DNA of 64,000 nt from a virus: IMG/VR virus record IMGVR_UViG_3300027917_000021, positions 1 through 64,000 of that record. One strand, 5' to 3'. Below, one piece after another: positions 5,028 through 20,108 of this stretch (positions are counted from its first letter, which is position 1; every line of letters starts with the position of its first letter). The notes beneath the pieces were generated by a model. The model saw only the letters and a program-made list of their open reading frames with translations, was not told the DNA's origin and did not search any database. Made by a program: the position numbers and the translations under genes.

Positions 5028-5039
5028 TTCCCCTCCCTT

Positions 5040-5354: not shown

Positions 5355-5423
5355 TCTCCCCTCCATTCTTTCTTTTTGATTTAACAATAACAATATATGG
5401 TTTTTACCATTTACTATTTTTGG

Positions 5424-5959: not shown

Positions 5960-7129
5960 TTATCCCTTTATGTTTATAATTGGTTTAATGTGATGAATGA
6001 CTTCTACCAAGTCTTTTTGTTGTTCCATCACTTCAAAAATATTTTTATATGCGGCCGGCGATTCATCTATGGTAGCTGTCTCTACACGTGCCTTGATGCC
6101 ATTCATAGACTTCTTGAAATCTTCCATCTTCAGACTTTCTTTCGCTGCTCGGCGGCCAAGTACTCGTCCAGCCCCGTGTGAAGAGGAGTATAGAGATTCT
6201 GGATTACCTTTACCTTTTACAATAAAGGATCCATCACGCATATTGCCAGGAATTACTCCCATCATGTCTTTTTCTGCATGGGTGGCACCTTTACGATGTA
6301 TCCATAAGCCATCTTTTAATTCAGCATGATTATGGTTACGATTAATTAATCCATCCCAGTCTCCATGTCCTTTTGAATGGCGTTTAACTACTTTTTCCAC
6401 ACGACGGATCATTTCGGCACGGTTCAATAAAGCAAACTCTAAGGCATAATTAATGTCTGTGATGTAGTCTTGTCCGTTTTGAGAGTTTATGTCCAAAACA
6501 AAATATCCTTCTCGAGCTTTGCCATCTCCTGATGCTGCCTTCATATAATGAGTCGCTATATTGTGTCCAAAATTTCTGGATCCGGAATGGATGATTACCC
6601 ATATTTTTTCATCCTCATCATAGCCTATTTCAATAAAATGATTTCCTCCACCTAATGAACCAATTTGATATACTCCCTTCTCCGAGTAAATTTTTCCAAA
6701 ATGCTGAGTAATTGGCATCTGTTCCAGATGTTTGGTTGTATCAAAAGACACTCGTTTTTTATTCCAATCAAACCCAACTGGAATTACCTCGTATATTTCC
6801 TTGAAAATATTTTCTGTGGACGACTGTATTTGGTCTTTATGAAACGATGTAGGCAATGCACACATGCCACATCCAATATCATATCCTACAGCCGCCGGCC
6901 ATATAACATCTTTCATGGCAACAACTGCACCAATTGGAAGTGCATATCCAGTATGTGCGTCTGGCATTAGTGCGCCTTGTACTACTGTATCTTGCTTCAT
7001 TGCTTCATAAAATTGATCTAATGCTTGCCCTTCCACGTATTCGGCATAAATTTTATAAGGCTTATTTTTTGTAGATTTTACCTTTTCAGATATTTCTTTA
7101 TCTAAAAGATTGTCTTTCAATAGTGACAT
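5960..7129 (-). CDS. rtcB: RNA-splicing/repair ligase RtcB
   Basis: 389 residues, full length for a compact RtcB. It joins 2',3'-cyclic phosphate and 5'-OH RNA ends using GTP and Mn2+. Visible motifs in order: MPDAHTGYALPIG, YDIGCGMC, GSLGGGNHFIE, HSGSRNFGH, NHNHAE, RKGATHA, SSSHGAGR and ESPAAYK, which together include the metal ligands and the guanylylated His region. The start overlaps the upstream stop (TAATG), with AAGGAG inside that gene. In a tRNA-rich phage it could repair tRNAs cut by host anticodon nucleases. Confidence 0.97.
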   Translation of the reverse strand: MSLLKDNLLDKEISEKVKSTKNKPYKIYAEYVEGQALDQFYEAMKQDTVVQGALMPDAHTGYALPIGAVVAMKDVIWPAAVGYDIGCGMCALPTSFHKDQIQSSTENIFKEIYEVIPVGFDWNKKRVSFDTTKHLEQMPITQHFGKIYSEKGVYQIGSLGGGNHFIEIGYDEDEKIWVIIHSGSRNFGHNIATHYMKAASGDGKAREGYFVLDINSQNGQDYITDINYALEFALLNRAEMIRRVEKVVKRHSKGHGDWDGLINRNHNHAELKDGLWIHRKGATHAEKDMMGVIPGNMRDGSFIVKGKGNPESLYSSSHGAGRVLGRRAAKESLKMEDFKKSMNGIKARVETATIDESPAAYKNIFEVMEQQKDLVEVIHHIKPIINIKG

Positions 7130-7482: not shown

Positions 7483-7813
7483 ATGTGTGCGCCCTGAAAG
7501 ATTTGAACTTCCGATCTCCTGGATGTAAGCCAGGCGCCTTACCAACTTGACCAAGGGCGCTACCCCGCGAGAGACTCGAACTCCCGACACCCACGTCCGT
7601 AGCGTGGTGCTCTGATTCCAGCTGAGCTAGCGGGGCTTTAGATATTAAAATATATAAAAATATATCCCGGGTATATAGGCTAGTTCCTAATTGTATTCTA
7701 GGATATAATACTTGTTTGCCTATTAATTTTCTTCCATCATTGATTAGAAATACATCAACATCAATACTGCTAGTTGCTTCTATGTAAGGGTATTGTAATA
7801 TGTTTATTTCCAT
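7433..7813 (-). CDS. MK-strand mini-gene running into the tRNA cluster without a stop
   Basis: Starts MEINILQYPYIEAT with its ATG overlapping the stop of the upstream gene. About 58 plausible residues are encoded before tRNA-Arg(ACG) at 7636. The frame then stays open through three tRNAs to 7433. The tRNA-encoded tail is probably not real protein. If RNase P cuts at 7636 the mRNA ends without a stop codon. Confidence 0.45.
   Translation of the reverse strand: MEINILQYPYIEATSSIDVDVFLINDGRKLIGKQVLYPRIQLGTSLYTRDIFLYILISKAPLAQLESEHHATDVGVGSSSLSRGSALGQVGKAPGLHPGDRKFKSFRAHTWGVSSIGRAPPLHGEG
7488..7560 (-). tRNA. tRNA-Val(TAC)
   Basis: Acceptor GCGCCCT/AGGGCGC, anticodon arm CCTGG-CTTACAT-CCAGG. 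Confidence 0.94.
7561..7636 (-). tRNA. tRNA-Arg(ACG)
   Basis: Acceptor GCCCCGC/GCGGGGT, anticodon arm CCACG-CTACGGA-CGTGG. Abuts tRNA-Val directly. A34 would need the host TadA deaminase. Confidence 0.93.
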
Positions 7814-7998
7814 TTTGTATTTTCTATAACTATATAAATATTATGATTCCAAATAGTACTATCCGTACTTAATATAAGATTTCCTTTGTCATCGGGAATT
7901 ATGGCTGCTTTTGCTAAAATTGTGCAATCGCTGTATGATTTTGCGTTTCTTTCTCGTGTAGTAACCACAGAAGCTCTTTTAATTTTAAATCTTATCAT
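7804..7998 (-). CDS. tRNA-following mini-protein, 64 aa
   Basis: The ATG is 2 bases after the discriminator of tRNA-Arg(TCT), with no SD. Starts MIRFKIKRASVV, a hydrophobic/basic beta strand. The middle (SDCTILAKAAIIPD, NLILSTDSTIW) alternates strands and turns. Function unknown. Its stop overlaps the next start. Confidence 0.6.
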   Translation of the reverse strand: MIRFKIKRASVVTTRERNAKSYSDCTILAKAAIIPDDKGNLILSTDSTIWNHNIYIVIENTKWK

Positions 7999-8000
7999 TG

Positions 8001-8074
8001 TACCCCTCCAGGAATTTGAATCCCGACCTTTGAAATTAGAAGTTTCATGCTCTATCCAGTTAAGCTAGAGGGGC
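8001..8074 (-). tRNA. tRNA-Arg(TCT)
   Basis: Acceptor GCCCCTC/GAGGGGT, anticodon arm TGAAA-CTTCTAA-TTTCA. Confidence 0.93.
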
Positions 8075-8364
8075 TATTTCATATATTTATAATTTTTATT
8101 TTTAAAAAATTCTTTTGCCATGTCTATTACTTCTTCTAAAGACATATCTGTTCCAAGCTTTTCGTAAATTTCTGAATTGTCAACAAGTTTAGACCAATCT
8201 TCATCAAATTTCTTTAATTCTTTTTCATCCCATCCTTGAGATCCAAGATAAATTATTGTGACTTCTTCGGTTGCGCCTGATGCTGCCATATGAAAAATAA
8301 TATCGACCACCATAGATGCACTAATACGCAAAATAATATATTTGTCTGTGAACTTTACTTGCAT
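8074..8364 (-). CDS. MK-strand mini-protein, 96 aa
   Basis: Start chosen at MQVKFTDKYIILR, after AAGGAG. It has an acidic helical C-terminal half (WDEKELKKFDEDWSKL). The first residues match MEVKFTDCYFIRA of the gene at 13703-13900, so the two are likely paralogues. The stop codon shares its last base with the 5' end of tRNA-Arg(TCT). Confidence 0.7.
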   Translation of the reverse strand: MQVKFTDKYIILRISASMVVDIIFHMAASGATEEVTIIYLGSQGWDEKELKKFDEDWSKLVDNSEIYEKLGTDMSLEEVIDMAKEFFKNKNYKYMK

Positions 8365-8380
8365 ATATTCTCCTTTTTTG

Positions 8381-8452
8381 CACGCCCACAAGGATTTGAA
8401 CCTCGAGTCTCGGATTTGGAGTCCGATGGTTTACCAATTAACCGATAGGCGC
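8381..8452 (-). tRNA. tRNA-Trp(CCA)
   Basis: Acceptor GCGCCTA/TGGGCGT (wobbles at 1-72 and 6-67), anticodon arm TCGGA-CTCCAAA-TCCGA, G73. Confidence 0.92.
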
Positions 8453-8641
8453 GTCTAAATCCCACTCTTCGTCAACTAAAAAAATATCTCCTGAAAACCA
8501 GAATGTGCCGCCTTGATTAACTCCTTTTTCGGCATATTGATTTTTGCCAATAAGAATTCCTTCTTGTTCTTCTTTAGGAGTTACGTCTGGTGTTCCTTTT
8601 AGAACTGGCCGGGATGCCACTATAATATTGATCGATTTCAT
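8438..8641 (-). CDS. MK-strand mini-protein ending inside tRNA-Trp
   Basis: 67 residues, starting MKSINIIVASRPV; glycine-rich middle (GGTFWFSGDIFLV). Overlaps the upstream gene by 68 bases in another frame. The stop is 15 bases inside tRNA-Trp, so tRNA processing would remove it. No SD. Function unknown. Confidence 0.5.
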   Translation of the reverse strand: MKSINIIVASRPVLKGTPDVTPKEEQEGILIGKNQYAEKGVNQGGTFWFSGDIFLVDEEWDLDAPIG

Positions 8642-8819
8642 CTGTTAATATGACCTCCGTGTTGTATGTGGTTACAGTACAGTCGTGTGAAAATGTTACT
8701 ATAACTTCTCCTATTCTTTTTCCTTCCGGATAAGGTATCACGGTTTCTGCTTGTGTTGCACTATACCAATAAACTGGAGTTGTTATTACTTGTTTGTTAA
8801 TTAAATTTATATTTTTCAT
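8574..8819 (-). CDS. tRNA-following mini-protein, 81 aa
   Basis: ATG 2 bases after tRNA-Glu (CT spacer), no SD. Starts MKNINLINKQVITT and continues as a probable beta-rich domain (VYWYSATQAETVIPY, GEVIVTFSHD, VILTDE). The layout resembles the gene at 12730-12957 (MRKINLIDGQTLTWIRMS). Function unknown. Confidence 0.6.
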   Translation of the reverse strand: MKNINLINKQVITTPVYWYSATQAETVIPYPEGKRIGEVIVTFSHDCTVTTYNTEVILTDEIDQYYSGIPASSKRNTRRNS

Positions 8820-8821
8820 AG

Positions 8822-8894
8822 TGGTCCCGGGGAGAATTGAACTCGCCGTTTTCTGGTTGAAAGCCAGATATCCTAACCATTAGATGACGGGACC
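8822..8894 (-). tRNA. tRNA-Glu(TTC)
   Basis: Acceptor GGTCCCG/CGGGACC, anticodon arm TCTGG-CTTTCAA-CCAGA. Confidence 0.93.
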
Positions 8895-9116
8895 TCTGGG
8901 TGCTTTTTTAATTTTTCTTTGTGGAAAAGGAAAAATAAAAAATACTGTAGCGTGTACTACATTTGAAGGCATTCCTTCGTAACCTTTAATATTTTTTGCT
9001 GTGATAATTTTACTTGCATTAAATTGGGTTGGGGAAGGATTTTGTGTTTTTAAATCAACCTGTATTGTTCCATTAAACATTCCCAAACCTGTACCTTTTA
9101 TTATATATGCTTTCAT
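8880..9116 (-). CDS. tRNA-following mini-protein ending inside tRNA-Glu
   Basis: 78 residues, ATG 2 bases after tRNA-His. Starts MKAYIIKGTGLGMF, then NGTIQVDLKTQNP...KIITAKNIKGYEG...HATVFFIFPFP, a beta-strand pattern. The stop lies 15 bases inside tRNA-Glu. Function unknown. Confidence 0.55.
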   Translation of the reverse strand: MKAYIIKGTGLGMFNGTIQVDLKTQNPSPTQFNASKIITAKNIKGYEGMPSNVVHATVFFIFPFPQRKIKKAPRGPVI

Positions 9117-9118
9117 AG

Positions 9119-9194
9119 AGGGTCGTCAGGGAGTCGAACCCTACCTATACGAGCCACAATCGTACGTGCTTCTGCCCATATACACTACCGACCC
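9119..9194 (-). tRNA. tRNA-His(GTG)
   Basis: Anticodon arm TACGA-TTGTGGC-TCGTA, T-arm TAGGG-TTCGACT-CCCTG. Acceptor GGGTCGG/ACGACCC has one mismatch at 7-66 and an irregular D-arm. The exact ends, including the extra 5' G of tRNA-His, are uncertain by a base. Confidence 0.8.
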
Positions 9195-9421
9195 TTAAGT
9201 ACTCTTTTTAATTTTTTGCAGTCTATGCATATCTGCTCTTTCCTTCTAAATGTTTCAAATATTTCTCCACATGCTTTACATGCTTTGTCTCGCAAGCCTT
9301 CTGGCCTGTCATCAATCTCTGCAGTACATATATCTGTGCTGTCTGCTGTATCTGTTATTCTTATCCAGGTAGTTCCTGCTGTAGAAGTATCGCCTGTATA
9401 TTCTAATGTTGCAAATCCCAT
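9185..9421 (-). CDS. Small zinc-ribbon protein, 78 aa
   Basis: Beta-rich N-terminus (TTWIRITDTADSTDIC) followed by a zinc-ribbon-like tail: CKACGEIFETFRRKEQICIDC, with Cys pairs spaced 17 apart. The stop is 10 bases inside tRNA-His. Function unknown; nucleic-acid binding is possible. Confidence 0.6.
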   Translation of the reverse strand: MGFATLEYTGDTSTAGTTWIRITDTADSTDICTAEIDDRPEGLRDKACKACGEIFETFRRKEQICIDCKKLKRVLKGR

Positions 9422-9429
9422 AAATTATT

Positions 9430-9674
9430 ACCTTAATAAAACAAAAATAGGGTGCTGTCCAGGTCGCTCATTTCTACGCCGTTGGTTAGTGCGGACTTAA
9501 AGCCAGTACGCGAGCCTCTAGCCGAACGTTATGACTAGAATATCTTCTCGATCACCAACATTATGTCTCTTTCTCTAGGAGTATTCTCACTACGAAATGC
9601 CCTCGATGCAGCACCTCTAATTAAAGGGAGGATGTGCCGGCTGAGGACGCATTGCGTCCTCTATCCTCCCGTAG
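9430..9674 (-). ncRNA. Candidate structured RNA downstream of tRNA-fMet
   Basis: Non-coding 245 bases. The 5' part holds a nested hairpin: GGGAGGAT pairs with ATCCTCCC and encloses GAGGACGC/GCGTCCTC. No known family recognised and no T-run at the end. Confidence 0.35.
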
Positions 9675-9748
9675 TAGCGCGGACGGGATTTGAACCCGTG
9701 ACCTGTTGGTTATGAGCCAACTGAGCTACCGGACTGCTCTACCGCGCG
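9675..9748 (-). tRNA. tRNA-fMet(CAT), initiator
   Basis: Anticodon loop CTCATAA. D-arm GAGCAGTCCGGTAGCTC is of initiator type. Acceptor CGCGCGG/CCGCGCT has a C1-T72 mismatch, the hallmark of bacterial initiator tRNA. Confidence 0.9.
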
Positions 9749-9754
9749 ATATAG

Positions 9755-9828
9755 TTGCGGGGGCGGGATTTGAACCCGCGACCTACAGGTTATGAGCCTG
9801 CCGAGCTACCAGACTGCTCCACCCCACA
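9755..9828 (-). tRNA. tRNA-Met(CAT), initiator-like
   Basis: Similar D-arm and anticodon loop to its neighbour, but the acceptor TGTGGGG/CCCCGCA is fully paired (T1-A72). A second initiator, an elongator derived from one, or a tRNA-Ile(CAT) are all possible. Confidence 0.85.
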
Positions 9829-9836
9829 TTAACCAT

Positions 9837-10049
9837 CATAATTTATTTTCTATAACCAGGATTCTGTATTTAACGTACGTTAAATGTCCGTGATTTATCT
9901 GTTGGCCCCTACCTTGTCATTATAGAGCTGCTCTCCCTCTAGACTATTTTGGGTCGCATCCTTGGTGGTATAATGGATATTCCTCCCACCGTGAGCAGCG
10001 ATGTCCTGAGTTTCCTCTCCGTAGAGCCACGAACCAAAAATAAATTATG
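9837..10049 (-). ncRNA. rnpB: RNase P RNA, compact
   Basis: The ends form a 13-bp helix (10037-10049 with 9837-9849), as P1. A CR-I-like block GAGAGGAAACTCAGGAC lies at 10002-10018. A CR-V-like block ACAGAATCCTGG lies at 9856-9867. P4 is CAGGA (10004-10008) with TCCTG (9857-9861). A central stretch CCAAGGATGCGACCCAAAATAG partly recalls the conserved CAAG..CCAAAUAG region. It is about 213 nt against 350-400 in bacteria, so the specificity domain seems reduced or lost. The 18-base ACGTACGT palindrome (9868-9885) forms a hairpin just before CR-V. The 5' P1 strand overlaps the end of the purA-like gene. Confidence 0.65.
9868..9885. repeat. ACGTACGT-centred palindrome, 18 bp
   Basis: Perfect inverted repeat ATTTAACGT/ACGTTAAAT inside the RNase P RNA. 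Confidence 0.9.
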
Positions 10050-11229
10050 AAAATTTGTAAATAGTGCCTTCCGGAGACCTACTGATATAAACTTTTGATG
10101 TTTCCAGTACATGTGCTATCATCTCAACAAATTCTTTGAGGGTATCAAATTCATAATCAATATCACAATATGTAAGACAATATTTCTTTAAATTGTCAAC
10201 ACATGTTATTACCAATCTCCTATCAGCAACATTTTTTAATTTGTGAATATTAAAACTATATTCCAACAGTGATAAATCCAAAACTGTTTTTCTAAAATTT
10301 CCCTGCCATACATGCATTTTATTCTGCTCATATTTATTTTCCAGTATGAATTCATTGTTGTAGTGGTCCAGATTTGTCATTGGTCCGGTACCATGCCTAG
10401 TTTGATAAGCACGCGTAACTATCCAAACAGTAGGTTCTGCACTCTCTGGCAATGATATGTTTTTCATTCCTGTATTAGATCGTGTTACATGTGGAAAAAA
10501 TCCCAAATCTTGATCTAACAATAATCCTTGTGCACTTTCATAAATATAAGAATCAAAACCATCCGGAATATCTGTGCCTATATGTAGTCGCACGGCATAA
10601 TCATAGAAGTCTTCTCTTAATTCTTCACAAGCACCAAGAAATTTTTTCCAATCAGTTTTTTTGTTATAATATTTTTCCACCATACGAATTTTATACAACA
10701 AAATAGGTTCATAAAAAATATCTAGAAATTTAAAACTATAATGATCTTGTTCTCTTTTAATTGTAGTTCCGAATCCAACACCAACGCTTCCATGTTTAGT
10801 TATCAATTCCTGATTTTGATTAAATTCCTTATCAAGTGGAGTAGTAACCGGTGCATGAGAAGAAATAAATATTTCTGGGTCAATACCTTTCCCTATCAAA
10901 ATACCAAGTTCTTTTAGTAGTCCTTCTGGATCAACGGTGCAATGTTTACTCCAATAGGTGGGCACCCCGCGAAGAGTGCCCGAACCAAAATTGGAGAATA
11001 CATGTGATATTTTATTATGAATTACATGGTGCCCTGCTTGATGGCCACCATTAAAACGTATAACAAGAGGATTTTTCCTCTCACCGCTTAGCCAATCAAC
11101 TACTCTACCTTTTCCGTTATCCCCAAAACTTAAATCGAGGACAACATCATAAGATGACTTCTTCTTGAGGTTTTTCAACTTCCTCTTTAGGTTTTGTAGT
11201 ATCATCTGAAAATTTTCCTTGTTTGACAT
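10045..11229 (-). CDS. Adenylosuccinate synthetase family (PurA/PurZ-like)
   Basis: 394 residues from the first ATG. An ATG eight codons later (11205) has AAGGA upstream and may be the true start. Motifs: FGDNGKGRVVD (P-loop-like, catalytic Asp kept), RFNGGHQAGHHVI (catalytic His), TTPLDK, TRAYQTRHGTGPM, and WQGNFRKTVLDLS. PurA joins Asp to IMP using GTP. Phage PurZ uses dGMP to make 2-aminoadenine and usually lacks the Asp, which is kept here. No DatZ partner is visible. The gene overlaps the vWA gene upstream by 83 bases and the RNase P RNA downstream. Confidence 0.85.
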   Translation of the reverse strand: MSNKENFQMILQNLKRKLKNLKKKSSYDVVLDLSFGDNGKGRVVDWLSGERKNPLVIRFNGGHQAGHHVIHNKISHVFSNFGSGTLRGVPTYWSKHCTVDPEGLLKELGILIGKGIDPEIFISSHAPVTTPLDKEFNQNQELITKHGSVGVGFGTTIKREQDHYSFKFLDIFYEPILLYKIRMVEKYYNKKTDWKKFLGACEELREDFYDYAVRLHIGTDIPDGFDSYIYESAQGLLLDQDLGFFPHVTRSNTGMKNISLPESAEPTVWIVTRAYQTRHGTGPMTNLDHYNNEFILENKYEQNKMHVWQGNFRKTVLDLSLLEYSFNIHKLKNVADRRLVITCVDNLKKYCLTYCDIDYEFDTLKEFVEMIAHVLETSKVYISRSPEGTIYKFS

Positions 11230-12046
11230 TTGAAAGAATTGTATCTCGAATTATTTTTGATACATCTTCATGTCTATCCGCAATGAACAATCGATCGCCC
11301 ATTAATTGTTTCCATCCATCAACTGTTTCTTTACGTGCTCCGGCTGCAGTTTCAGCAATATGAATATGAAAAACATCATACGTTTTCATTGCTTGTGCCA
11401 ATAGTTCATTTGCTGTTGTATCTGAATATTGCCCTGGACCCATGATACCTTCCAAGTGTCTTTTAGAAATAGACTCGAGTACCGGCTCGTCACCAATTGT
11501 GAATAGAAAGCCTTTTTGGCTACGCTTCTCAAAACAATCAATTGATGTATGTTTACTGGCAAAATACCATGCCAAATGATAGCTTTCGCCGACATTGCCT
11601 CCACCGCCGCCTTCTAAATAAACAGCAGTAAGCCATTTATCTAAAAGCTCATCACTTGATTCGAATTGTCCAACTTGTAATGGAGCACTATCGAAATTTG
11701 AATCTCCCACAGCCACAAACATAATTTGTGGGTCTGGAATTCCTGCCTGGATAATGCCTTCCATAATCTTTGGCAGGCCATCTTTAACCAGGAAATGTGG
11801 AACTGATCCCATGGAGCCGGTAACATCCAGACCTATAACAATAGCCAGGCTATTTGGATGTTCATCTGAATCCCGAGATTCTCTTACTGTTACACCATGA
11901 GGACTCATGGCATTATTTATAGAACGCTGTTTAAAAACGTTCTCTTTGTGGGATAAATACTCTTCAGTATCCTTATACCCTTCTGTTGTGGCCATGAACG
12001 CAATGCGTTCCGTGCGGGATTCGCTGGAATATCTTCCGCCACCCAT
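11147..12046 (-). CDS. Metal-binding vWA-domain protein
   Basis: 299 residues. A vWA domain spans roughly 65-275 with the MIDAS motif DVTGSMG, a Gly-rich GGGGGNVGES loop and TIGDEP. The C-terminal tail is Lys/Glu/Pro-rich. The start overlaps the stop of the 129-residue gene (TAATG), so the two are co-translated. This is a second vWA protein besides the TROVE protein. Partner and role are unknown. Confidence 0.85.
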   Translation of the reverse strand: MGGGRYSSESRTERIAFMATTEGYKDTEEYLSHKENVFKQRSINNAMSPHGVTVRESRDSDEHPNSLAIVIGLDVTGSMGSVPHFLVKDGLPKIMEGIIQAGIPDPQIMFVAVGDSNFDSAPLQVGQFESSDELLDKWLTAVYLEGGGGGNVGESYHLAWYFASKHTSIDCFEKRSQKGFLFTIGDEPVLESISKRHLEGIMGPGQYSDTTANELLAQAMKTYDVFHIHIAETAAGARKETVDGWKQLMGDRLFIADRHEDVSKIIRDTILSNVKQGKFSDDTTKPKEEVEKPQEEVIL

Positions 12047-12435
12047 TAAGTCACCTCGCCTTCCAATTCACCAACTGGTATGTTTCCCGGTTTTTTTGAG
12101 GAATCAACGAATTGATATTCGTATTCCTGTTTAGCTAACATAAGGCGAATTTTTTCGTTCCTGATTTTCATAGCCAGCTCCAGATTTTTTTCAACGTATG
12201 CTGCTGCGTCAAAATCTGAAGGAACTTTAAGGCTCAATGCATTATCAGGAGATAAATCAAGCATATTCTCTTTATCTCTTAGGAGTTGCTTAATTTTCAC
12301 CTCAATGTCTTCCACCTTACGTTTATATAAAAGCTCGGCGGACTCGACCAGTGCTTCTGCACGGTCTTTTCGAATACCTTGATTGGTTCTCGTTAGAGAC
12401 TCAACAAAGGCTCCTTTAGCTTGTTGATTAGCCAT
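12046..12435 (-). CDS. Coiled-coil protein upstream of the vWA gene
   Basis: 129 residues, Lys/Glu-rich, probably helical over residues 20-110 (AEALVESAELLYKRKVEDIEVKIKQL). SD GAGAGGAAA before the ATG. Tight coupling suggests a complex with the vWA protein. No family recognised. Confidence 0.75.
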   Translation of the reverse strand: MANQQAKGAFVESLTRTNQGIRKDRAEALVESAELLYKRKVEDIEVKIKQLLRDKENMLDLSPDNALSLKVPSDFDAAAYVEKNLELAMKIRNEKIRLMLAKQEYEYQFVDSSKKPGNIPVGELEGEVT

Positions 12436-12451
12436 TTTCTTTCCTCTCTGT

Positions 12452-12643
12452 TTAATGGTTTAATTTGCTATTTACCATAGCTTTATAATATAGATGTTTT
12501 TGATTTTCCAAAAAATTGTCTAAAGCATGAAGCTTAGTTTCTAATGCACAAATCCACGCATATGTGTTAATGGGATCCTTAGATGCATTTAAATTCTTTT
12601 CTATTATTTTTAATTCTTTTAAATATTCACTTAAATTGACCAT
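12452..12643 (-). CDS. Small helical protein, 63 aa
   Basis: Leu/Lys-rich and helical (LSEYLKELKIIEKNLN, ALETKLHALDNFLENQK). The ATG is only 7 bases after the class B core, so its leader is very short; no SD. Function unknown. Confidence 0.65.
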   Translation of the reverse strand: MVNLSEYLKELKIIEKNLNASKDPINTYAWICALETKLHALDNFLENQKHLYYKAMVNSKLNH

Positions 12644-12650
12644 ATTTACT

Positions 12651-12662
12651 TTCTTATTCCAT
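12651..12662 (-). promoter_or_regulatory. Class B promoter motif
   Basis: Minus strand ATGGAATAAGAA, 7 bases before the ATG at 12643 and just downstream of tRNA-Ser. Confidence 0.6.
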
Positions 12663-12667
12663 ATTTG

Positions 12668-12753
12668 CGGTAGGAGAAGGATTCGAACCTTCGTGCCCCG
12701 TAGGACGACGGTTTAGCAAACCGTTGCAATTAGCCTGACTCTGCCATCCTACC
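12668..12753 (-). tRNA. tRNA-Ser(GCT)
   Basis: Acceptor GGTAGGA/TCCTACC, anticodon arm ACGGT-TTGCTAA-ACCGT, long variable arm. Confidence 0.93.
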
Positions 12754-12957
12754 TATTCCTGGTAAAAAATGGTCTATAATTGTAGTACCATCTATTTTTA
12801 CTTCCCGAACCCGAACCATTCCAGTACCTGTTCTGCCTAAAATCACACTTGGCAGTTCAATATTAGTAGTAGCACTGTGCCCGTGTATTCCGTTTTCTTC
12901 ATGGCTCATTCTTATCCATGTCAATGTTTGACCATCAATTAAATTTATTTTTCTCAT
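12730..12957 (-). CDS. MK-strand mini-protein ending inside tRNA-Ser
   Basis: 75 residues, SD AGGAGG 3 bases before the ATG, 14 bases after tRNA-Phe. Starts MRKINLIDGQTLTWIRMS; beta-rich. The stop is 24 bases inside tRNA-Ser. Function unknown. Confidence 0.6.
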   Translation of the reverse strand: MRKINLIDGQTLTWIRMSHEENGIHGHSATTNIELPSVILGRTGTGMVRVREVKIDGTTIIDHFLPGIGRMAESG

Positions 12958-12970
12958 AGTCCTCCTTTTG

Positions 12971-13044
12971 TGGGGACAGTTGGAGTTGAACCAACGACCA
13001 GAAAATTTTCAGTTTTCCACTCTACCACACTGAGTTACATCCCC
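12971..13044 (-). tRNA. tRNA-Phe(GAA)
   Basis: Acceptor GGGGATG/TGTCCCC, anticodon arm GAAAA-CTGAAAA-TTTTC, A73. Confidence 0.92.
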
Positions 13045-13632
13045 ATTACGTCTACAGAAAGTTGATTGTTGGCTATTACAATTTGGACAAAGTAATCTTA
13101 AATTTTTTATTCTGTAATCATCATTTTTACCATTTATATGGTCCAGTATTAGAACAAGTGGCTTTTCATTCCAAATAGGTTTTAATTTACAGATATTACA
13201 TTCATTATTTAAAAGATTTTTTTCTACCAACCTTTTCTTTAACCGTGTATTATTTTTATATGACGAATTATCAACCAATATTTCTTCTAAAGTTTTTCTT
13301 ACTACTTCCCCAGTTCTTCCGTGTGCTTTGCCCAAAAAATGATCTGTAGATATTTTTAATTTTTTTATATGGCGATTCAACGTGTCATAATTACCAGGTC
13401 TCGAACTTAACCCCAATTTTCGTAAAACCTCTGCTTTAGAAATACTAGTTTTAATTGCTTCTTTTAGATCAGTGTCGCTCCAGGTTCTTTGACCAGATCG
13501 TCTATATTGAGTTTTCAATCCATATTTATCTAACCAATACTTTGCAGATGTATACGATATTTGTTCTTTTGCTGCTATGTTTCTTATAGATAATCCAGCT
13601 TCTATATACTTAATTAAATTTTGTTTTTTCAT
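13009..13632 (-). CDS. HNH homing endonuclease
   Basis: 207 residues. The N-terminus looks like two helix-turn-helix DNA-binding repeats (residues 1-40 and 48-75). The C-terminal third is an HNH nuclease: CNICKL, LILDHINGKNDDYRIKNLRLLCPNCNSQQ with the Cys pairs and central DH/N. Its promoter is 5 bases upstream, so the mRNA is leaderless. The 3' end overlaps tRNA-Phe by 36 bases, and a tRNA 5' fragment lies behind its promoter. This indicates insertion into the tRNA array. Confidence 0.9.
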   Translation of the reverse strand: MKKQNLIKYIEAGLSIRNIAAKEQISYTSAKYWLDKYGLKTQYRRSGQRTWSDTDLKEAIKTSISKAEVLRKLGLSSRPGNYDTLNRHIKKLKISTDHFLGKAHGRTGEVVRKTLEEILVDNSSYKNNTRLKKRLVEKNLLNNECNICKLKPIWNEKPLVLILDHINGKNDDYRIKNLRLLCPNCNSQQSTFCRRNGDVTQCGRVEN

Positions 13633-13637
13633 ACTAT

Positions 13638-13666
13638 AATATACTAAAATTATTACAGTATGTCAA
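13638..13666 (-). promoter_or_regulatory. Class A promoter of the HNH gene
   Basis: TTGACA at 13661-13666, TATATT at 13638-13643, 17-base spacer. Five bases separate the -10 from the ATG. Confidence 0.8.
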
Positions 13667-13670
13667 TAGT

Positions 13671-13698
13671 TCGCTCTACCAACTGAGCTACAGTCCCC
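13671..13698 (-). tRNA. tRNA 5' fragment
   Basis: GGGGACT, TA or GTA, and a perfect D-arm (GCTC..GAGC) are present; nothing of the anticodon or T-arm follows. It is a truncated tRNA remnant next to the HNH gene. Confidence 0.6.
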
Positions 13699-13702
13699 TT
13701 AA

Positions 13703-13900
13703 TTATTCTTTTGGTCTATTATGTTTATGATATTCTTTTAAAGTCCATCCTAATGATCTAAGCCTTTTATCTGCTAATTCTAACATTTCTTTTTCGGACA
13801 TGTATGATGCTAATCCTTCATTGATGACTTTCATCATGAGTTCATCAACTTCTTTTAATCCTGCTCTTATAAAGTAGCAGTCTGTGAATTTAACTTCCAT
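13703..13900 (-). CDS. tRNA-following mini-protein, 65 aa
   Basis: ATG 2 bases after tRNA-Leu(TAG). Starts MEVKFTDCYFIRAGL, like the gene at 8074-8364; helical middle (EKEMLELADKRLRSL). Function unknown. Confidence 0.6.
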   Translation of the reverse strand: MEVKFTDCYFIRAGLKEVDELMMKVINEGLASYMSEKEMLELADKRLRSLGWTLKEYHKHNRPKE

Positions 13901-13902
13901 AG

Positions 13903-13987
13903 TAGGAGCGGAGGGACTTGAACCCCCACGGTATTTCTACCACTAGATCCTAAGTCTAGCGCGCCTGCCAAATTTCGCCACGCTCCC
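13903..13987 (-). tRNA. tRNA-Leu(TAG)
   Basis: Acceptor GGGAGCG/CGCTCCT, anticodon arm CTAGA-CTTAGGA-TCTAG, long variable arm. Confidence 0.93.
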
Positions 13988-13998
13988 ATTTAGGACAG

Positions 13999-14202
13999 CT
14001 ATGCTGTCCTAATATGTTTATATTGTGTTTTACGTTTTTGTTTCCAGGATCTTTTAGGATACCTGCTTATTCCCACTCCTGAATTGCAGCCTTTGCCTAG
14101 TGGACATATAGGACATAATCCACCAAGCAGCACGTAATACCTTGCTGCGCGATATATTCTATTGTTTGTTGTTGTATGTAGAATTTGATAAGCTTTGTGC
14201 AT
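13999..14202 (-). CDS. Small Cys-rich basic protein, 67 aa
   Basis: Core RYYVLLGGLCPICPLGKGC with three clustered Cys, then a basic tail (YPKRSWKQKRKTQYK). Overlaps the end of the dimer-glycosylase gene by 44 bases. Possibly metal-binding; function unknown. Confidence 0.55.
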   Translation of the reverse strand: MHKAYQILHTTTNNRIYRAARYYVLLGGLCPICPLGKGCNSGVGISRYPKRSWKQKRKTQYKHIRTA

Positions 14203-14632
14203 AGTTTACAGGCCATATATAAGGTAAATTATTAGGTTCTGTCCAATCATATTGAGAATAGAAAGAAAAATCTTTTCTTAATAGATTGGATCTATGACTC
14301 GCATGAAAATTTTCATCCCCTAACCAATGTGGAAGATGTATGACATCTGCTATGATAAAACGTGGCATATTATTTTTATATCCTTTAAGTATCCATGTAT
14401 CTACTACGACATTATAATATTTCGTAAGAGCGTCCTCATATCCTTCCCACATTAAAACAGCTGGATGGTTTATCCACCCCTTAGGTACATTTTTGTCTCC
14501 TTTTTGAATAGCTTTTCTTCTTTCTAGGACATTCAAAATTTGATATGCCTCTACTCGCTGTTTTCCAAGCCTTCTGTAATCTAATATTTTTGCACTTACA
14601 TTAAAATCCGGATAAGGTAAAAAAGTTTGCAT
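14159..14632 (-). CDS. Pyrimidine-dimer DNA glycosylase family protein
   Basis: 157 residues. Start MQTFLPYPDFNVSAKILDYRRLGKQRVEAYQIL, then INHPAVLMWEGYEDAL and FHASHRSNLLRKDFSFY. These are the conserved blocks of the T4 DenV-related pyrimidine-dimer glycosylase family (PF03013 type). The likely role is base-excision repair of UV damage or a related activity. A long interior insertion is present compared with T4 DenV. Confidence 0.7.
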   Translation of the reverse strand: MQTFLPYPDFNVSAKILDYRRLGKQRVEAYQILNVLERRKAIQKGDKNVPKGWINHPAVLMWEGYEDALTKYYNVVVDTWILKGYKNNMPRFIIADVIHLPHWLGDENFHASHRSNLLRKDFSFYSQYDWTEPNNLPYIWPVNYAQSLSNSTYNNKQ

Positions 14633-14635
14633 AAT

Positions 14636-14857
14636 TTATCTGGGTTTATAAGCACGTATAAACTCAAAACGTCCACTTCTCATAGGAGGCCCTCCTGGAT
14701 ATGCGTGCTTTATTTGTTTATTGAAAAATAAACTCATAGAAAAATCTTGGGTTTCCCATTTTTTCTTCAATTTTTCTAAAGCTTCGGTGACTTTAACTTT
14801 ATCAGTTATTTCATCGAATACTGTTTCTTGTGTAACGTGAACTATACGTTTTTTCAT
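14636..14857 (-). CDS. tRNA-following mini-protein, 73 aa
   Basis: ATG 2 bases after tRNA-Leu(CAA). Starts MKKRIVHVTQETVF, helical middle (VTEALEKLKKKWE), C-terminus GRFEFIRAYKPR. Function unknown. Confidence 0.6.
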   Translation of the reverse strand: MKKRIVHVTQETVFDEITDKVKVTEALEKLKKKWETQDFSMSLFFNKQIKHAYPGGPPMRSGRFEFIRAYKPR

Positions 14858-14859
14858 TG

Positions 14860-14945
14860 TAGGCAAGGTAGGGTTTGAACCTACACCCCATCACGGTGGG
14901 ACTAGAGTTTGAACCTAGCGCGTCTTCCAATTCCGCCACTTGCCC
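14860..14945 (-). tRNA. tRNA-Leu(CAA)
   Basis: Acceptor GGGCAAG/CTTGCCT, anticodon arm CTAGG-TTCAAAC-TCTAG, long variable arm. Confidence 0.92.
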
Positions 14946-15163
14946 TAAGCATCGAAAAAGATTTTTAATATTATAGATGCTATTTCATTTGATTTTTTAA
15001 GTGAAAGATCACTATTATCTTTTATAGCCATGGCTAAATTAGCTCTCCAGCCTACATGATATCCTTTATCTGTTTTTAGTGCTTTTCCTAATGTGTCCAT
15101 TGCGTCTTCGATATGGTTCTTTTTTACAAGAACTTCTTTTCTTACAAATTTTACTTTTTTCAT
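14945..15163 (-). CDS. tRNA-following mini-protein, 72 aa
   Basis: ATG 2 bases after tRNA-Leu(TAA). Starts MKKVKFVRKEVLVKK, then a helical domain (IEDAMDTLGKALKTDKGYHVGWRANLAMAIKDN). The last base of its TAG stop is the first base of tRNA-Leu(CAA). Function unknown. Confidence 0.65.
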   Translation of the reverse strand: MKKVKFVRKEVLVKKNHIEDAMDTLGKALKTDKGYHVGWRANLAMAIKDNSDLSLKKSNEIASIILKIFFDA

Positions 15164-15165
15164 AG

Positions 15166-15249
15166 TAGGGATGGAAGGGGTCGAACCTTCACGATATTTC
15201 TATCACGGAATTTTAGGTCCCGCGCGCCTGCCGATTACGCCACATCCCC
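15166..15249 (-). tRNA. tRNA-Leu(TAA)
   Basis: Acceptor GGGGATG/CATCCCT, long variable arm, anticodon TAA in loop CCTAAAA. Position 33 reads C rather than U, so its activity is less certain. Confidence 0.85.
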
Positions 15250-15425
15250 AAAAAAAAGAGGTAGTTATCAGCTATAAGCATTAGTCTTATGTGGCCGGAA
15301 ACATTTGAGTTCTGCTCGGGTTAGCCTATTATGTTCGAGCCTTTAGCTACCAGAATGTTCACATAACCATCATTTCCCCTGCCAGGTAGGAATACCAAAC
15401 ACTATTATTGTAACTACCTCTCTCC
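15250..15425 (-). ncRNA. Rod-like RNA with closing terminator helix
   Basis: GAGGTAGTTA at the 5' end (15411-15420) pairs with TAACTACCTC (15258-15267), followed by eight T. Inside, TTATGTG/CACATAA, AACATT/AATGTT and GCTCG/CGAGC pair in nested order. The result is one long imperfect hairpin of about 165 nt. The shape recalls 6S RNA or Y RNA, but no family motif is recognised. It follows the 174-residue gene by 7 bases. Confidence 0.45.
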
Positions 15426-15431
15426 CACTAC

Positions 15432-15956
15432 TTACCGGCCAAAATTGACCAGAGCAGCAGGAATATCAATATCTACTTTTGTCGCATTGGCAAGTGCAAC
15501 AGTCTGTCGTATATCCGCTGCATGTTTATTGGCAGCATTACGAACTTTTGTCGCATCTTCTTTGGCAATACTTCTTTTTGCATGTACCTCATCTTTATTA
15601 CGTACACGATCATATGTATCACCCCACCCACGGCGTGATGTTTCTTTGTCAACAGTAAGTATTTTCCATGTAGACGCAAAACGGCTAGCCATGCCAATTG
15701 CCTTAATCGCATATGCTAAAGTTTTTTCTTCTCCAGCAATTTCTACTTTGACATAAAGATTGTATCTTTGCTGTGCTTCTTCAAGTTTAGCTACAGCATC
15801 TTCTGCTTTTTTATAATCCTCTGCAACTACTATAGGATCCACTTTATCATTATCATCAAAATAGTAAAGTGAATTTTTCAAATCAGTTGCAGCTCCATCT
15901 AGCACTGTACGCCAATGACGTAGTGCTTCTCTTAACTGATATCCAGTTACTTTCAT
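15432..15956 (-). CDS. Helical protein, 174 aa
   Basis: Almost entirely predicted helix, Ala/Lys/Asp-rich (DYKKAEDAVAKLEEAQQRYNLYV, AKRSIAKEDATKVRNAANKHAADI). Start MKVTGYQLREALRHWR; overlaps the upstream stop (ATGA). No signal peptide, no family recognised. It could be a structural or scaffold protein. Confidence 0.75.
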   Translation of the reverse strand: MKVTGYQLREALRHWRTVLDGAATDLKNSLYYFDDNDKVDPIVVAEDYKKAEDAVAKLEEAQQRYNLYVKVEIAGEEKTLAYAIKAIGMASRFASTWKILTVDKETSRRGWGDTYDRVRNKDEVHAKRSIAKEDATKVRNAANKHAADIRQTVALANATKVDIDIPAALVNFGR

Positions 15957-16150
15957 TGTTTTCCTTCCGTTAAAATTATTTCTTTTGGTAATACTTGGCT
16001 ACGAACAAATACCCAGCTTAAATGATTTTCTCTGGCTGTTAATATCCAACCTGAGCCTGAGCCTTCATCCATAGATCTAGGAATTACCTGACTACTATCA
16101 ACACTTTTTATAATTAGTTGATTTCTAGAATGTACTTTTATTTGCTTCAT
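15953..16150 (-). CDS. tRNA-following mini-protein, 65 aa
   Basis: ATG 2 bases after tRNA-Ser(TGA). Starts MKQIKVHSRNQLIIKS; includes GSGSGWILTARENHLSWVFV, beta-rich. Function unknown. Coupled to the next gene by ATGA. Confidence 0.6.
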   Translation of the reverse strand: MKQIKVHSRNQLIIKSVDSSQVIPRSMDEGSGSGWILTARENHLSWVFVRSQVLPKEIILTEGKQ

Positions 16151-16152
16151 AG

Positions 16153-16244
16153 AGGTGGGTTAGAGATTCGAACTCTAAAACCGCTTTTCAACGGCCACGC
16201 TGTTTTCAAGACAGGTCCCCGCGCCAAATGAGGTCAGACCCACC
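16153..16244 (-). tRNA. tRNA-Ser(TGA)
   Basis: Acceptor GGTGGGT/ACCCACC, anticodon TGA in loop CTTGAAA, long variable arm; discriminator T. Confidence 0.9.
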
Positions 16245-16327
16245 TAGTTGGCGAGAGCTTTATAAACATTAACTCATAATCACTATCTACTCTCGCTTAG
16301 AGTAGTGAATAGACCTAATGCCATAAG

Positions 16328-16403
16328 CGGGGCATAACGGATTTGAACCGATGGTCTCCTGCGTGACAGGCAGGCGCTTTAAGCCAAGCTAAGCTAATAC
16401 CCC
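16328..16403 (-). tRNA. tRNA-Asp(GTC)
   Basis: Acceptor GGGGTAT/ATGCCCC, anticodon arm CCTGC-CTGTCAC-GCAGG, G73. Confidence 0.93.
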
Positions 16404-16409
16404 GTTTTT

Positions 16410-16832
16410 TTATTTTTGATACTCATAGATTTCAAATGCCGAATTCTTTATAAATGATTTATATGGTAAATGTACAACTCTCTGTGAATATGTTTTATAA
16501 TGTATGTCTTCCTTGATATCTCGACGTACTGTAAAATACGCTTTTCCATTTTTTGTTAATAATTTATTTATGTGCTTGATTATCTTTTCTTGTTCTTCTT
16601 CTGTTACAACACATAATATGTAATTACAAATTATGACATCATATTTACCTGTTGGTGTAATGTTGTGCCAGTGTGGATCATATCGTTCCAAATTATTTAT
16701 AAATTGGTAATCTATTGATTTTCCACATCCATAATCAAGCATTCTTTTCCCAGTCAATACTCCATAAACTAATAGCATTGCTGTTGGACTAGATATTTTT
16801 TTTCTCACTATTGCAGTTCGCGCGTTTGACAA
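16410..16832 (-). CDS. Class I SAM-dependent methyltransferase
   Basis: 140 residues. SAM-binding motif I is MLDYGCGKSIDYQF and motif IV-like is YDVIICNYILCVV. Together with LTKNGKAYFTVRRD this fits a short Rossmann methyltransferase. Substrate unknown; tRNA or nucleic acid is possible given the location. Shorter than the family norm (about 200), so peripheral elements may be missing. Confidence 0.75.
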   Translation of the reverse strand: MSNARTAIVRKKISSPTAMLLVYGVLTGKRMLDYGCGKSIDYQFINNLERYDPHWHNITPTGKYDVIICNYILCVVTEEEQEKIIKHINKLLTKNGKAYFTVRRDIKEDIHYKTYSQRVVHLPYKSFIKNSAFEIYEYQK

Positions 16833-16992
16833 GATCTTTCATGGTTAAATCATATATTCCTATATGATTAATGTATTCATATTTTGTGCCTTGTTCTGTC
16901 GTATAAAATAAAACCTGTTTAAACAGCCCAAGGACTTCTAAATCAGTACTCCACGTAGTGCTTAGTACTGATGGATATGTTCTCACTATCAT
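16789..16992 (-). CDS. tRNA-following mini-protein, 67 aa
   Basis: ATG 2 bases after the tRNA-Met at 16995; an upstream extension would be read from the tRNA itself. Starts MIVRTYPSVLSTT; beta-rich (LEVLGLFKQVLFYTTEQG). Overlaps the methyltransferase start by 44 bases. Function unknown. Confidence 0.55.
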   Translation of the reverse strand: MIVRTYPSVLSTTWSTDLEVLGLFKQVLFYTTEQGTKYEYINHIGIYDLTMKDLVKRANCNSEKKNI

Positions 16993-16994
16993 AG

Positions 16995-17067
16995 TTGGCC
17001 CAACAGGGCTTGAACCTGTGACCGGTGCATTATGAGTGCACTGCTCTACCAACTGAGCTATGGGCCA
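16995..17067 (-). tRNA. tRNA-Met(CAT), elongator type
   Basis: Acceptor TGGCCCA/TGGGCCA fully paired, anticodon arm GTGCA-CTCATAA-TGCAC, elongator D-arm. Lysidine-type tRNA-Ile(CAT) cannot be excluded. Confidence 0.88.
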
Positions 17068-17080
17068 TAATAAAACATAG

Positions 17081-17153
17081 TGGTACCGCCTGGACTTGAA
17101 CCAGGGACCATTCGGATATCAGCCGAATGCTCCACCAACTGAGCTACGGTACC
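17081..17153 (-). tRNA. tRNA-Ile(GAT)
   Basis: Acceptor GGTACCG/CGGTACC, anticodon arm TTCGG-CTGATAT-CCGAA. Followed after CT by an ATG that opens a frame of only six codons into tRNA-Met, a likely remnant of a mini-gene. Confidence 0.94.
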
Positions 17154-17162
17154 GCCGGACAA

Positions 17163-17543
17163 TTACTTGTCCAGTTTGCACAGATATTTCTCAAAATCCG
17201 TTGGCGTGGCTTCCAGGTCAATTTTTTTAACTTCTGGTGCTTCGAACAGATCCTCATAGTTTCTGTTTTCATTCCGGTCGTTACCAAATAGACGATCCAT
17301 AATATCATCTGCACGACGAGGAAATATTTCATTTATATATCCTTCACGTGACATGATTTTAACCGCATTATCAAAACGGGCATTGACCATCTTGAAGCCT
17401 TGCTTTTTGTTTAGAGGATGAATCTCACCTTCTCCATAAACGGAAATAGTACGAGCAAACTTCACCCCATTTTCATTTGAGAAAACACCTACTGTTACGA
17501 TAGGGTGGTTACCCTCATCATACAGGTAATATACACGTCTCAT
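17163..17543 (-). CDS. Hypothetical protein, 126 aa
   Basis: Beta-rich first half (MRRVYYLYDEGNHPIVTVGVF, FARTISVYGEGEI), acidic second half. Overlaps the upstream stop by 4 bases (ATGA). No family recognised. Confidence 0.75.
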   Translation of the reverse strand: MRRVYYLYDEGNHPIVTVGVFSNENGVKFARTISVYGEGEIHPLNKKQGFKMVNARFDNAVKIMSREGYINEIFPRRADDIMDRLFGNDRNENRNYEDLFEAPEVKKIDLEATPTDFEKYLCKLDK

Positions 17544-17788
17544 GACGGGTCTCCTTCTTTAATGGTTTCTTCCAGTTCTTCCATTATTTCTTGTTGTAAT
17601 CTTTCAAAGGCATAATCTGGAACCTTATGCCCTGCTTTTATATGCTCCACTAAGTGATTTAATGCATCAAGCCTAGTTTTAAATATATCTTTACCATATT
17701 TATCAAAACCACACCAACAACACTGGAAGCCTTCACCGGTGGCCAAAAAATAAATGTCGCTGTCTTCACCAAATCTACAATATGACAT
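17540..17788 (-). CDS. Conserved small Cys protein, 82 aa
   Basis: MSYCRFGEDSDIYFLATGEGFQCCWCGF, then a helical DALNHLVEHIKAGHKVPDYAFERL. This layout is common in small proteins of phages and actinobacteria and probably binds metal. SD AGGAGG lies in the end of the upstream mini-gene. Confidence 0.75.
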   Translation of the reverse strand: MSYCRFGEDSDIYFLATGEGFQCCWCGFDKYGKDIFKTRLDALNHLVEHIKAGHKVPDYAFERLQQEIMEELEETIKEGDPS

Positions 17789-17792
17789 TTTA

Positions 17793-17948
17793 TTAACAAC
17801 CTCCTATAAAATGATTTTCTTTTATATCAGTAAAATCGGTGAATAGTTTATTTTGATATAAGTAAATAGTACAAAATAATACATCATTTCTTGTCATATC
17901 ATGATATATTTCTGTTACAGCGTTCGCTGTCATAATTTTTATTTTCAC
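17793..17948 (-). CDS. tRNA-following mini-protein with GTG start, 51 aa
   Basis: The GTG is one base after the tRNA-Gln discriminator. Starts MKIKIMTANAV, then EIYHDMTRNDVLFCTIYLY. Ends GGC with AGGAGG forming the SD of the next gene. Too short for most gene finders, but it fits the neighbouring pattern. Function unknown. Confidence 0.5.
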   Translation of the reverse strand: MKIKIMTANAVTEIYHDMTRNDVLFCTIYLYQNKLFTDFTDIKENHFIGGC

Positions 17949-17949
17949 G

Positions 17950-18022
17950 CTGGGGCGGAAGGGCTCGAACCTCCGACATTCGGGTCCAAGGCCCGACGTT
18001 CCACCAACTGAACTACACCCCA
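17950..18022 (-). tRNA. tRNA-Gln(TTG)
   Basis: Acceptor TGGGGTG/CGCCCCA with G73, typical of Gln. Anticodon stem TCGGG/CCCGA with loop CCTTGGA, so position 33 is C. Confidence 0.8.
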
Positions 18023-19509: not shown

Positions 19510-20108
19510 TGGAGCTGCCGGTCAAATGTTTTAAAAGATCCTCCTTCTGTTTCCAGTAGGTATCGGACTATCTCTTCATCTTCTATTTCTATTTAGAAGA
19601 GTTGGACGCTCTTGCTGGTAATTAAGAGGATTTACCTCTCCAGTAGTCTCTGCACCTTATGAAGATTTATCTTCATCTTGGCTCAGGGTTGCCATATACA
19701 CTGTACTTAGGTTTCCCTGAATTCATCCAATTTAATCGAAAAGTTCACACTTTAAGTCGACATTTTTTGAAATATCGAAACCGGGTCCGAACATATACAT
19801 TAAATTATTCTTTTACATTCATATCCGTTTAGGTATCATAAGCGTTGGCATGCTCTGCAAACGGATAAGGCCTGCATGCTCGCCTGATCTCCTTGATTTA
19901 AGCTCACTGACGGATCAGTCCAGATCGCCGAGTCAAACATTTACGACCATTGCATGCCGTGACATAACATGCTAGTCGTGGCTGTTAAGCAGCCATGCGG
20001 TATGTATTGCCAGTTATTCTGACAGTTGTAACTTGTTCTACGGCCATGTTACAGTAACGCCGGAATGAAATAATTTAACTTTTACATCCGTCGAATCCAT
20101 TCAGCCCC
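19510..20108 (-). ncRNA. ssrA: tmRNA (ssrA), interrupted by a group I intron
   Basis: The 5' end GGGGCTGAATGGATTCGACGG (20108 downward) is the canonical tmRNA start. The 3' end CAGCTCC with A73 (19510-19517) pairs with GGGGCTG and gives G3-U70, the alanine identity pair. T-stem CCGGT/ACCGG flanks the intron. The tag frame at 19985-20020 reads RITGNTYRMAA then TAA, ending in the AA needed for proteolysis. Spliced length is about 350 nt. CCA is not encoded. It rescues ribosomes on stop-less mRNA. Confidence 0.88.
19524..19773 (-). other. Small group I intron in the tmRNA T-loop
   Basis: About 250 bases, no ORF. P1 pairs exon UCGAU (ending 19774) with GUCGA in the intron, with a U-G pair at the 5' splice site. 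The core has CAGGGAAACCT and GCAACCCTGAGCC (P4 to P6), GGTGCAGAGACTA and GATAGTCC (P7, guanosine site). The 3' splice site is near 19522-19523; the exact base is uncertain. Confidence 0.85.

Follow-up and report, generated by a model that had tools for sequence, protein, structure and literature searches.

In animal mitochondrial DNA the open reading frames (ORFs) are punctuated by transfer RNAs (tRNAs), and the messages start 0-3 nucleotides (nt) before the AUG and have no Shine-Dalgarno sequence (SD). Leaderless messenger RNAs (mRNAs) are also known in bacteria and phages, including lambda cI and actinobacterial genes (PMC4681348, PMC3848588). Concerning phage tRNAs, T4 has polycistronic tRNA precursors without CCA which need 3' processing and CCA addition (PMC11143913), Theta ribozymes are described as a self-cleaving RNA device concerned with phage tRNAs (PMC10879173), and in mycobacteriophage Fionnbharth a tRNA-Lys overlaps the 3' end of gene 37 (PMC10865867). 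The locus described here is a tRNA array of an uncultivated virus in which small genes (mini-genes) start exactly two bases past the discriminator base of a tRNA, an offset given below as +2. The window, i.e. the whole 64,000-base stretch analysed, comprises bases 1-64000 of the 155,895-base IMG/VR record IMGVR_UViG_3300027917_000021 (G000), whose terminase, major head protein, head maturation protease and tail sheath mark it as a tailed phage. ARAGORN finds 27 tRNA genes in the window; they lie between 2.0 and 18.7 kb, and every one of them is on the minus strand. The only close relative in IMG/VR is the 169 kb record G001 with contig 3300037247_001890 (L001), whose RtcB is 79% identical to that of G000 and whose tRNA order is nearly the same as in the window; no close relative was found among cultured phages at the DNA level.

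With the discriminators placed by Rfam at 8001, 8822, 9119, 13903, 14860, 15166, 16153, 16995, 17081 and 17950, an ATG lies exactly 2 nt past nine of them (8001 to 17081), as had been proposed in an earlier note on this DNA. The spacer, described there as nearly always CT, is CT at seven of these nine sites and CA at 8001 and 14860. The note had placed a mini-gene at every site; eight of the ATGs do open ORFs of 64-81 codons, but the frame after 17081 is not a gene, because it has only six codons and ends inside the next tRNA. At the tenth site a GTG is indeed present 1 nt past 17950, but its status as a gene is not supported by the relative. No function could be assigned to the mini-proteins from Pfam or PHROGs. 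The features of the array are the following.

7804..7998, minus strand: mini-gene of 64 amino acids; CA-ATG after tRNA-Arg(tct) discriminator 8001; SD-like GGAGGGG in the acceptor stem
8000..8074, minus strand: tRNA-Arg(tct); the stop TA/G of the upstream ORF straddles its 5' end (8076-8074)
8574..8819, minus strand: mini-gene of 81 amino acids; CT-ATG after tRNA-Glu discriminator 8822; homologue L001 7224 not tRNA-adjacent
8821..8894, minus strand: tRNA-Glu(ttc)
8880..9116, minus strand: mini-gene of 78 amino acids; CT-ATG after tRNA-His discriminator 9119; stop 12 nt into tRNA-Glu
9118..9194, minus strand: tRNA-His(gtg); its U8A9G10 is the stop of the upstream ORF, likewise in L001
13703..13900, minus strand: mini-gene of 65 amino acids; CT-ATG after tRNA-Leu(tag) discriminator 13903
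13902..13987, minus strand: tRNA-Leu(tag)
14636..14857, minus strand: mini-gene of 73 amino acids; CA-ATG after tRNA-Leu(caa) discriminator 14860; orthologue L001 3818 also at +2
14859..14945, minus strand: tRNA-Leu(caa); the stop TA/G of the preceding ORF spans its 5' end, conserved in L001
14945..15163, minus strand: mini-gene of 72 amino acids with a tRNA at each end, CT-ATG to TA/G; orthologue L001 3507, CC-ATG to TA/G
15165..15249, minus strand: tRNA-Leu(taa), discriminator 15166
15953..16150, minus strand: mini-gene of 65 amino acids; CT-ATG after tRNA-Ser(tga) discriminator 16153; orthologue L001 2332 also at +2
16152..16244, minus strand: tRNA-Ser(tga)
16789..16992, minus strand: mini-gene of 67 amino acids; CT-ATG after tRNA-Met discriminator 16995; orthologue L001 836 also at +2
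16994..17067, minus strand: tRNA-Met(cat)
17058..17078, minus strand: rejected frame MFYYGP of six codons; ATG 2 nt after tRNA-Ile discriminator 17081
17793..17948, minus strand: possible mini-gene of 51 amino acids; GTG 1 nt after tRNA-Gln discriminator 17950

Given the local composition, the 27 window tRNAs would be expected to have 0.56 ATGs at +2, and nine are observed (p 2e-9); in L001 0.49 are expected and eight found (p 2e-8). TG follows an A at position 76 in 9 of 20 window tRNAs against 5.9% expected (p 8e-7), and in 9 of 21 L001 tRNAs against 5-6% expected (p <1e-6). In the two phages ORF starts after tRNAs are bimodal, being found either at +2 or at 13 nt and more, where there is room for an SD, with one case at +4. 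Of window ORFs of at least 40 codons, eight start at +2 and a single one at +4; the interval from +5 to +12 is empty, and the remainder start at +13 and beyond. In L001 there are eight at +2 and the others are at +14 and beyond, the Ser start being counted as +2 from the base-paired acceptor stem, since the Rfam boundary, one base short, suggests +3. Eight ORFs in each phage thus start within 0-3 nt of a tRNA, and the +2 arrangement is confirmed as real.

Loss of the spacing or of the frames in related phages had been named in the earlier note as an outcome that would speak against the idea. In L001 spacing, frames and N-termini are conserved. Four orthologue pairs stand at +2 in both phages, after tRNA-Leu(taa), tRNA-Leu(caa), tRNA-Met and tRNA-Ser(tga), and they align from Met1 with 57%, 46%, 48% and 43% amino acid identity, respectively. 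Pooled over the four pairs the nonsynonymous (pN) and synonymous (pS) values are 0.33 and 0.61, with synonymous sites near saturation (pN/pS 0.54); these are therefore protein-coding genes. Additional +2 genes in G001 follow the tRNAs for Asp, Val and Thr, and a non-matching one follows that for Glu. In two cases the mode differs: the +2 gene at 13900, without SD, has its orthologue at L001 4202 with an AGGAGG SD at +14, and the one at 9116, also without SD, at L001 6738 with a CGGAGG SD at +17. Both alignments begin at Met1, and single genes have changed between the +2 and the SD-led mode. In L001 there is in addition, after tRNA-Cys, a CT-ATG opening the five-codon frame MRRKK (16028-16050), with a stop TGA overlapping the following gene's ATG; a coupled leader peptide is possible.

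That no SD can fit in front of such starts, as first claimed, is correct for 13 of the 16 +2 ORFs of the two phages; the other three, 7998, L001 7049 and L001 9153, have SD-like purines, but these sit within the paired acceptor stem. The median energy of pairing between the 16S tail and positions -20 to -4 is -0.8 kcal/mol for the +2 genes, against -5.65 kcal/mol for the other array genes (p 0.001) and -2.3 kcal/mol for random positions. In the folded precursor each of the 16 genes has positions -12 to -3 engaged in base pairs (mean unpaired probability 0.04-0.30). An SD hidden in the tRNA, possible for three of the 16 only, was rejected as a general explanation. Leaderless mRNA made from a promoter was rejected for want of a convincing -10 box: no good match was found 5-13 nt before the predicted 5' end, where it would start transcription at the ATG, the best candidates having 2-4 of six bases and lying within conserved tRNA sequence. 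Prophage attachment (att) sites at tRNA ends were also rejected, as the ORFs are conserved between the phages and recur after many different tRNAs. The start codon is AUG in all 16 supported cases, besides the doubtful GTG.

The arrangement is not limited to G000, nor to phages. A complete scan of IMG/VR for a canonical T-loop followed at the right distance by CT-ATGAAR gave 63 stretches, with fewer independent events since some contigs are near-duplicates, versus five with the pattern shifted by two bases. AAG, ACG or AGG in place of ATG gave 55 matches for the three codons combined. The ATG sites open an ORF of at least 40 codons in 52 of 64 cases (median 73), the control sites in 9 of 55 (median 10). 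One of these +2 genes, in L168, is a relative of nucleotide-sugar epimerases, and from their translations those in L183 and L203 look like DNA methyltransferases and those in L180 and L194 like DNA polymerases. Several lineages carry more than one +2 site, including L197 (5 of 14 tRNAs), L186 (3 of 9) and, with two each, L118, L170, L176, L184 and L221. The scan of GTDB genomes, which had no shifted control, returned at least 116 matches, of which 80 sites were read; a few are spurious, being frames that read through another tRNA. Among the matches listed, 42 of the 80 sites have an ORF of at least 40 codons, these include sites of Patescibacteria, archaea, Actinobacteria and Bacteroidales, and the same gene is found at the same place in several species. 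Cellular loci with CT-ATG gene starts after a tRNA are L305, L353, L332, L336, L356 and L334, and RNase J-like and 6-phosphogluconolactonase-like proteins are among them by reading of translations.

At position 74, 26 of 27 window tRNAs and all 25 of L001 have C; a C at position 75 is found in three and two, and an A at position 76 in 20 and 21, respectively. CCA is encoded by 2 of 27 and 2 of 25 tRNAs, and C[not C]A by 18 and 19. Most tRNAs end in C-(T/A)-A in the place of CCA, and the A of the ATG is position 76. An exception is tRNA-Leu(taa) of L001, which keeps CC-ATG, its CCA sharing the A with the ATG; otherwise CC or CCA after the discriminator is mostly absent, as is characteristic of bacterial RNase Z substrates. 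In ten cultured tRNA-rich phages (248 tRNAs; T5 and KVP40 included) CCA is present in 81-100% of tRNAs per phage and in >90% overall, and a single +2 start occurs among the 248 tRNAs. B. subtilis RNase Z works 1520-fold more slowly when CCA follows the discriminator, and CCA has been called a general RNase Z repressor (PMC7479834). In the RCCA interaction the 3' RCC of a tRNA pairs with GGU of RNase P RNA (PMC11143913). C74 may be retained because of this RCC-GGU pairing, and C-(T/A)-A would leave the tRNA a substrate for RNase P and at the same time open it to RNase Z.

The RNase P protein (PF00825) was not found in either phage. An RNase P RNA-like sequence is present within the array (9837-10045, minus strand; class A, 46 bits, under the Rfam cut-off, E 4e-11), with a longer homologous form in L001 at about 5010-5380, and similar sequences occur in other large viral contigs (G010, 57 bits; G038, 146 bits). 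A phage RNase P-like RNA was dropped as part of the mechanism, being found in 1 of 30 records with +2 sites versus 1 of 30 controls.

We propose that the tRNA genes act as punctuation for the mini-genes downstream. The long transcript of tRNAs and ORFs would fold into cloverleaves, and an RNase Z-type 3' endonuclease would cut past each discriminator, the C-(T/A)-A instead of CCA permitting the cut. The right-hand product would be an mRNA with 5'-CU-AUG or 5'-CA-AUG, used by ribosomes as a leaderless message, and the other ORFs of the array, at least 13 nt from a tRNA, mostly rely on an ordinary SD. Leaderless mRNAs made by cleavage fit with the missing SD, the two classes of start offset, the C-(T/A)-A ends without CCA and the recurrence in unrelated phages, and the reading of the earlier note is supported in part. 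The enzyme, the cleavage and the leaderless initiation are what we infer from these features, and RNase Z-type cleavage yielding mRNAs with a two-base leader is in our judgement the probable, if by no means certain, origin of these messages.

Several points weigh against this proposal. A CCA-adding enzyme (PF01743) was not recognised in either phage. Each phage encodes one protein of the metallo-beta-lactamase fold, a hydrolase (L130 2970-3719, minus strand, corresponding to G000 about 126970-127719) which is far below the RNase Z cut-off; these proteins resemble the general phage hydrolase phrog_392, and RNase Z weakly. Uncultivated phages that have no +2 genes commonly show C-(T/A)-A ends too. 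The proposal depends on the 3' tRNA pathway of the host and on its ability to use leaderless mRNA, and a leaderless mRNA with a 5'-monophosphate could be short-lived. Finally, not all translation can come from processed RNA, because ORFs that stop inside a tRNA need to be translated before the RNase P cut.

Such ORFs are frequent. In both phages ORFs upstream of a tRNA often enter it, with stops at U8A9G10 (+7), at +12, at +18 to +33, or as TA/G across the 5' end. The last form is seen at the tRNA 5' ends 8074 and 14945 and in L001 at 3731, other ORFs stopping before or well inside the tRNA. The ORF between tRNA-Leu(taa) and tRNA-Leu(caa) has a tRNA at either end in each phage, extending from CT-ATG or CC-ATG to TA/G. 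The likeness to mitochondria put forward in the earlier note is therefore only partial upstream of the tRNAs, since many ORFs stop within the next tRNA. Where the stop is inside the tRNA, RNase P cleavage would leave a message without stop codon, which would have to be translated before cutting, completed by adenylation, or rescued. Transfer-messenger RNA (tmRNA) is present in both phages, which fits rescue of stop-less messages and proves nothing. In the window it is located at 19543-20101 (minus strand, 57 bits) with a group I intron (94 bits) adjoining or inserted, and in the tmRNA of the relative (L140 6251-6596) no intron was detected. Elsewhere in the array an HNH-type ORF (13009-13700, minus strand) runs into tRNA-Phe, with a truncated tRNA remnant adjoining it near 13666-13700, and the discriminator of tRNA-Arg(acg) directly touches the first base of tRNA-Val (7560-7561, minus strand), so that a single RNase P cut, at Val, would suffice to produce the 3' end of Arg.

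A chance origin or annotation artefact, with random ATGs opening spurious ORFs, can practically be discarded. Among the ten sites 17081 is spurious and the GTG case is doubtful, but p values of about 2e-9 and 2e-8 in two phages, purifying selection on the orthologues and ORF lengths far above those of the non-ATG control have already refuted it for the eight ATG cases. A more serious alternative, though still rather unlikely, is that the uncut transcript is translated before the tRNA folds and that in a compact array the tRNA end is simply the closest position available, with ribosomes either initiating without an SD, at an AUG with A-rich sequence behind it, or reinitiating after an upstream stop. 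Since the A of the ATG is A76, +2 is the first ATG slot leaving C-(T/A)-A intact; many upstream ORFs end in or beside the preceding tRNA, so that ribosomes would traverse uncut tRNA sequence; three ORFs have an SD-like sequence in the acceptor stem; and expression from uncut transcripts accounts for the absence of an SD. However, starts would then be expected across 0-12 nt, which leaves the exact spacing and the empty interval from +5 to +12 unexplained, reinitiation over 60-75 nt of tRNA offers no reason for an exact distance, and T5, which is similarly interleaved, has no +2 starts.

It is also conceivable, at a distinctly lower probability, that tRNA cutting destroys or silences the mini-gene, each transcript copy serving as tRNA or as mRNA, in a switch lowering mini-gene expression once tRNA maturation is fast. 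The overlap of ORF 3' ends with tRNA 5' ends in both phages and the A shared by CCA and ATG in tRNA-Leu(taa) of L001 are in line with this. Yet a cut after the discriminator leaves the whole ORF at its 5' end intact, and the CCA needed for exonucleolytic trimming is lost in 25 of 27 window tRNAs, because of which destruction of the start codon is not expected. We retain processing at the tRNA 3' end as the preferred explanation.

Other genes of the window include a Ro60/TROVE-like RNA-binding protein (224-1606, minus strand) adjoining a Y RNA-like match (9-119, minus strand; YrlA, 34 bits, under cut-off), and RtcB at 5960-7129; YrlA-like and Ro60-like genes are also present in L001. At 10045-11229 (minus strand) is an adenylosuccinate synthetase homologue (PHROG 2-aminooxy adenylosuccinate synthetase; weak PurZ match), which possibly serves base-modified DNA.

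Should tRNA 3' processing make these messages, phage tRNA arrays would double as mRNA-processing cassettes, which would explain why tiny ORFs accompany tRNAs, would tie phage gene expression to the host enzyme RNase Z, and would extend punctuation of the mitochondrial type to free prokaryotes and viruses. Gene finders which score the SD are likely to miss or mis-start such genes. We put forward more tentatively that a set of genes of a DNA virus is expressed only as leaderless messages set free when the tRNAs are excised, mini-protein supply being coupled to tRNA maturation and the RNase Z site being opened by the loss of C75, and that repeated origin in phages and in compact bacterial and archaeal genomes would make this a general prokaryotic mode.

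The opinion of the earlier note that no phage operon of this kind has been described agrees with a search limited to open-access full texts, in which none was found. Punctuation by tRNAs and leaderless translation are each known, and their combination in a phage with adapted tRNA ends appears to be undescribed. Known leaderless mRNAs share with these genes the lack of an SD and a start codon at or near the predicted 5' end; they arise at promoters or by MazF, whereas here no convincing -10 box was found and the putative end comes from tRNA maturation. The T4 review (PMC11143913) describes no ORF starts at tRNA ends. No Theta ribozyme was found here by Rfam, and the place after the tRNA is occupied by an ORF. 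Fionnbharth likewise has an ORF running into a tRNA, but what is at issue there is lysogeny and an ORF 3' end rather than the start of a gene. The T5 array (AY543070) resembles the window in that tRNAs alternate with small ORFs on one strand; its tRNAs, however, encode CCA (22 of 23) and its ORFs start at least 14 nt from a tRNA, so that the window array is not of the T5 type with SD-led ORFs between CCA-encoding tRNAs. Compared with mitochondria, the enzymes would be those of phage or bacteria, SD-led genes are mixed into the same array, and upstream stops are mostly located ahead of or within the tRNA, completion by poly(A) and the cleavage itself being putative. What the phage array has in common with mitochondrial punctuation is the placing of tRNAs between ORFs, the lack of an SD, predicted messages starting 0-3 nt ahead of the AUG, and one conserved ORF which ends in UA at the next tRNA.

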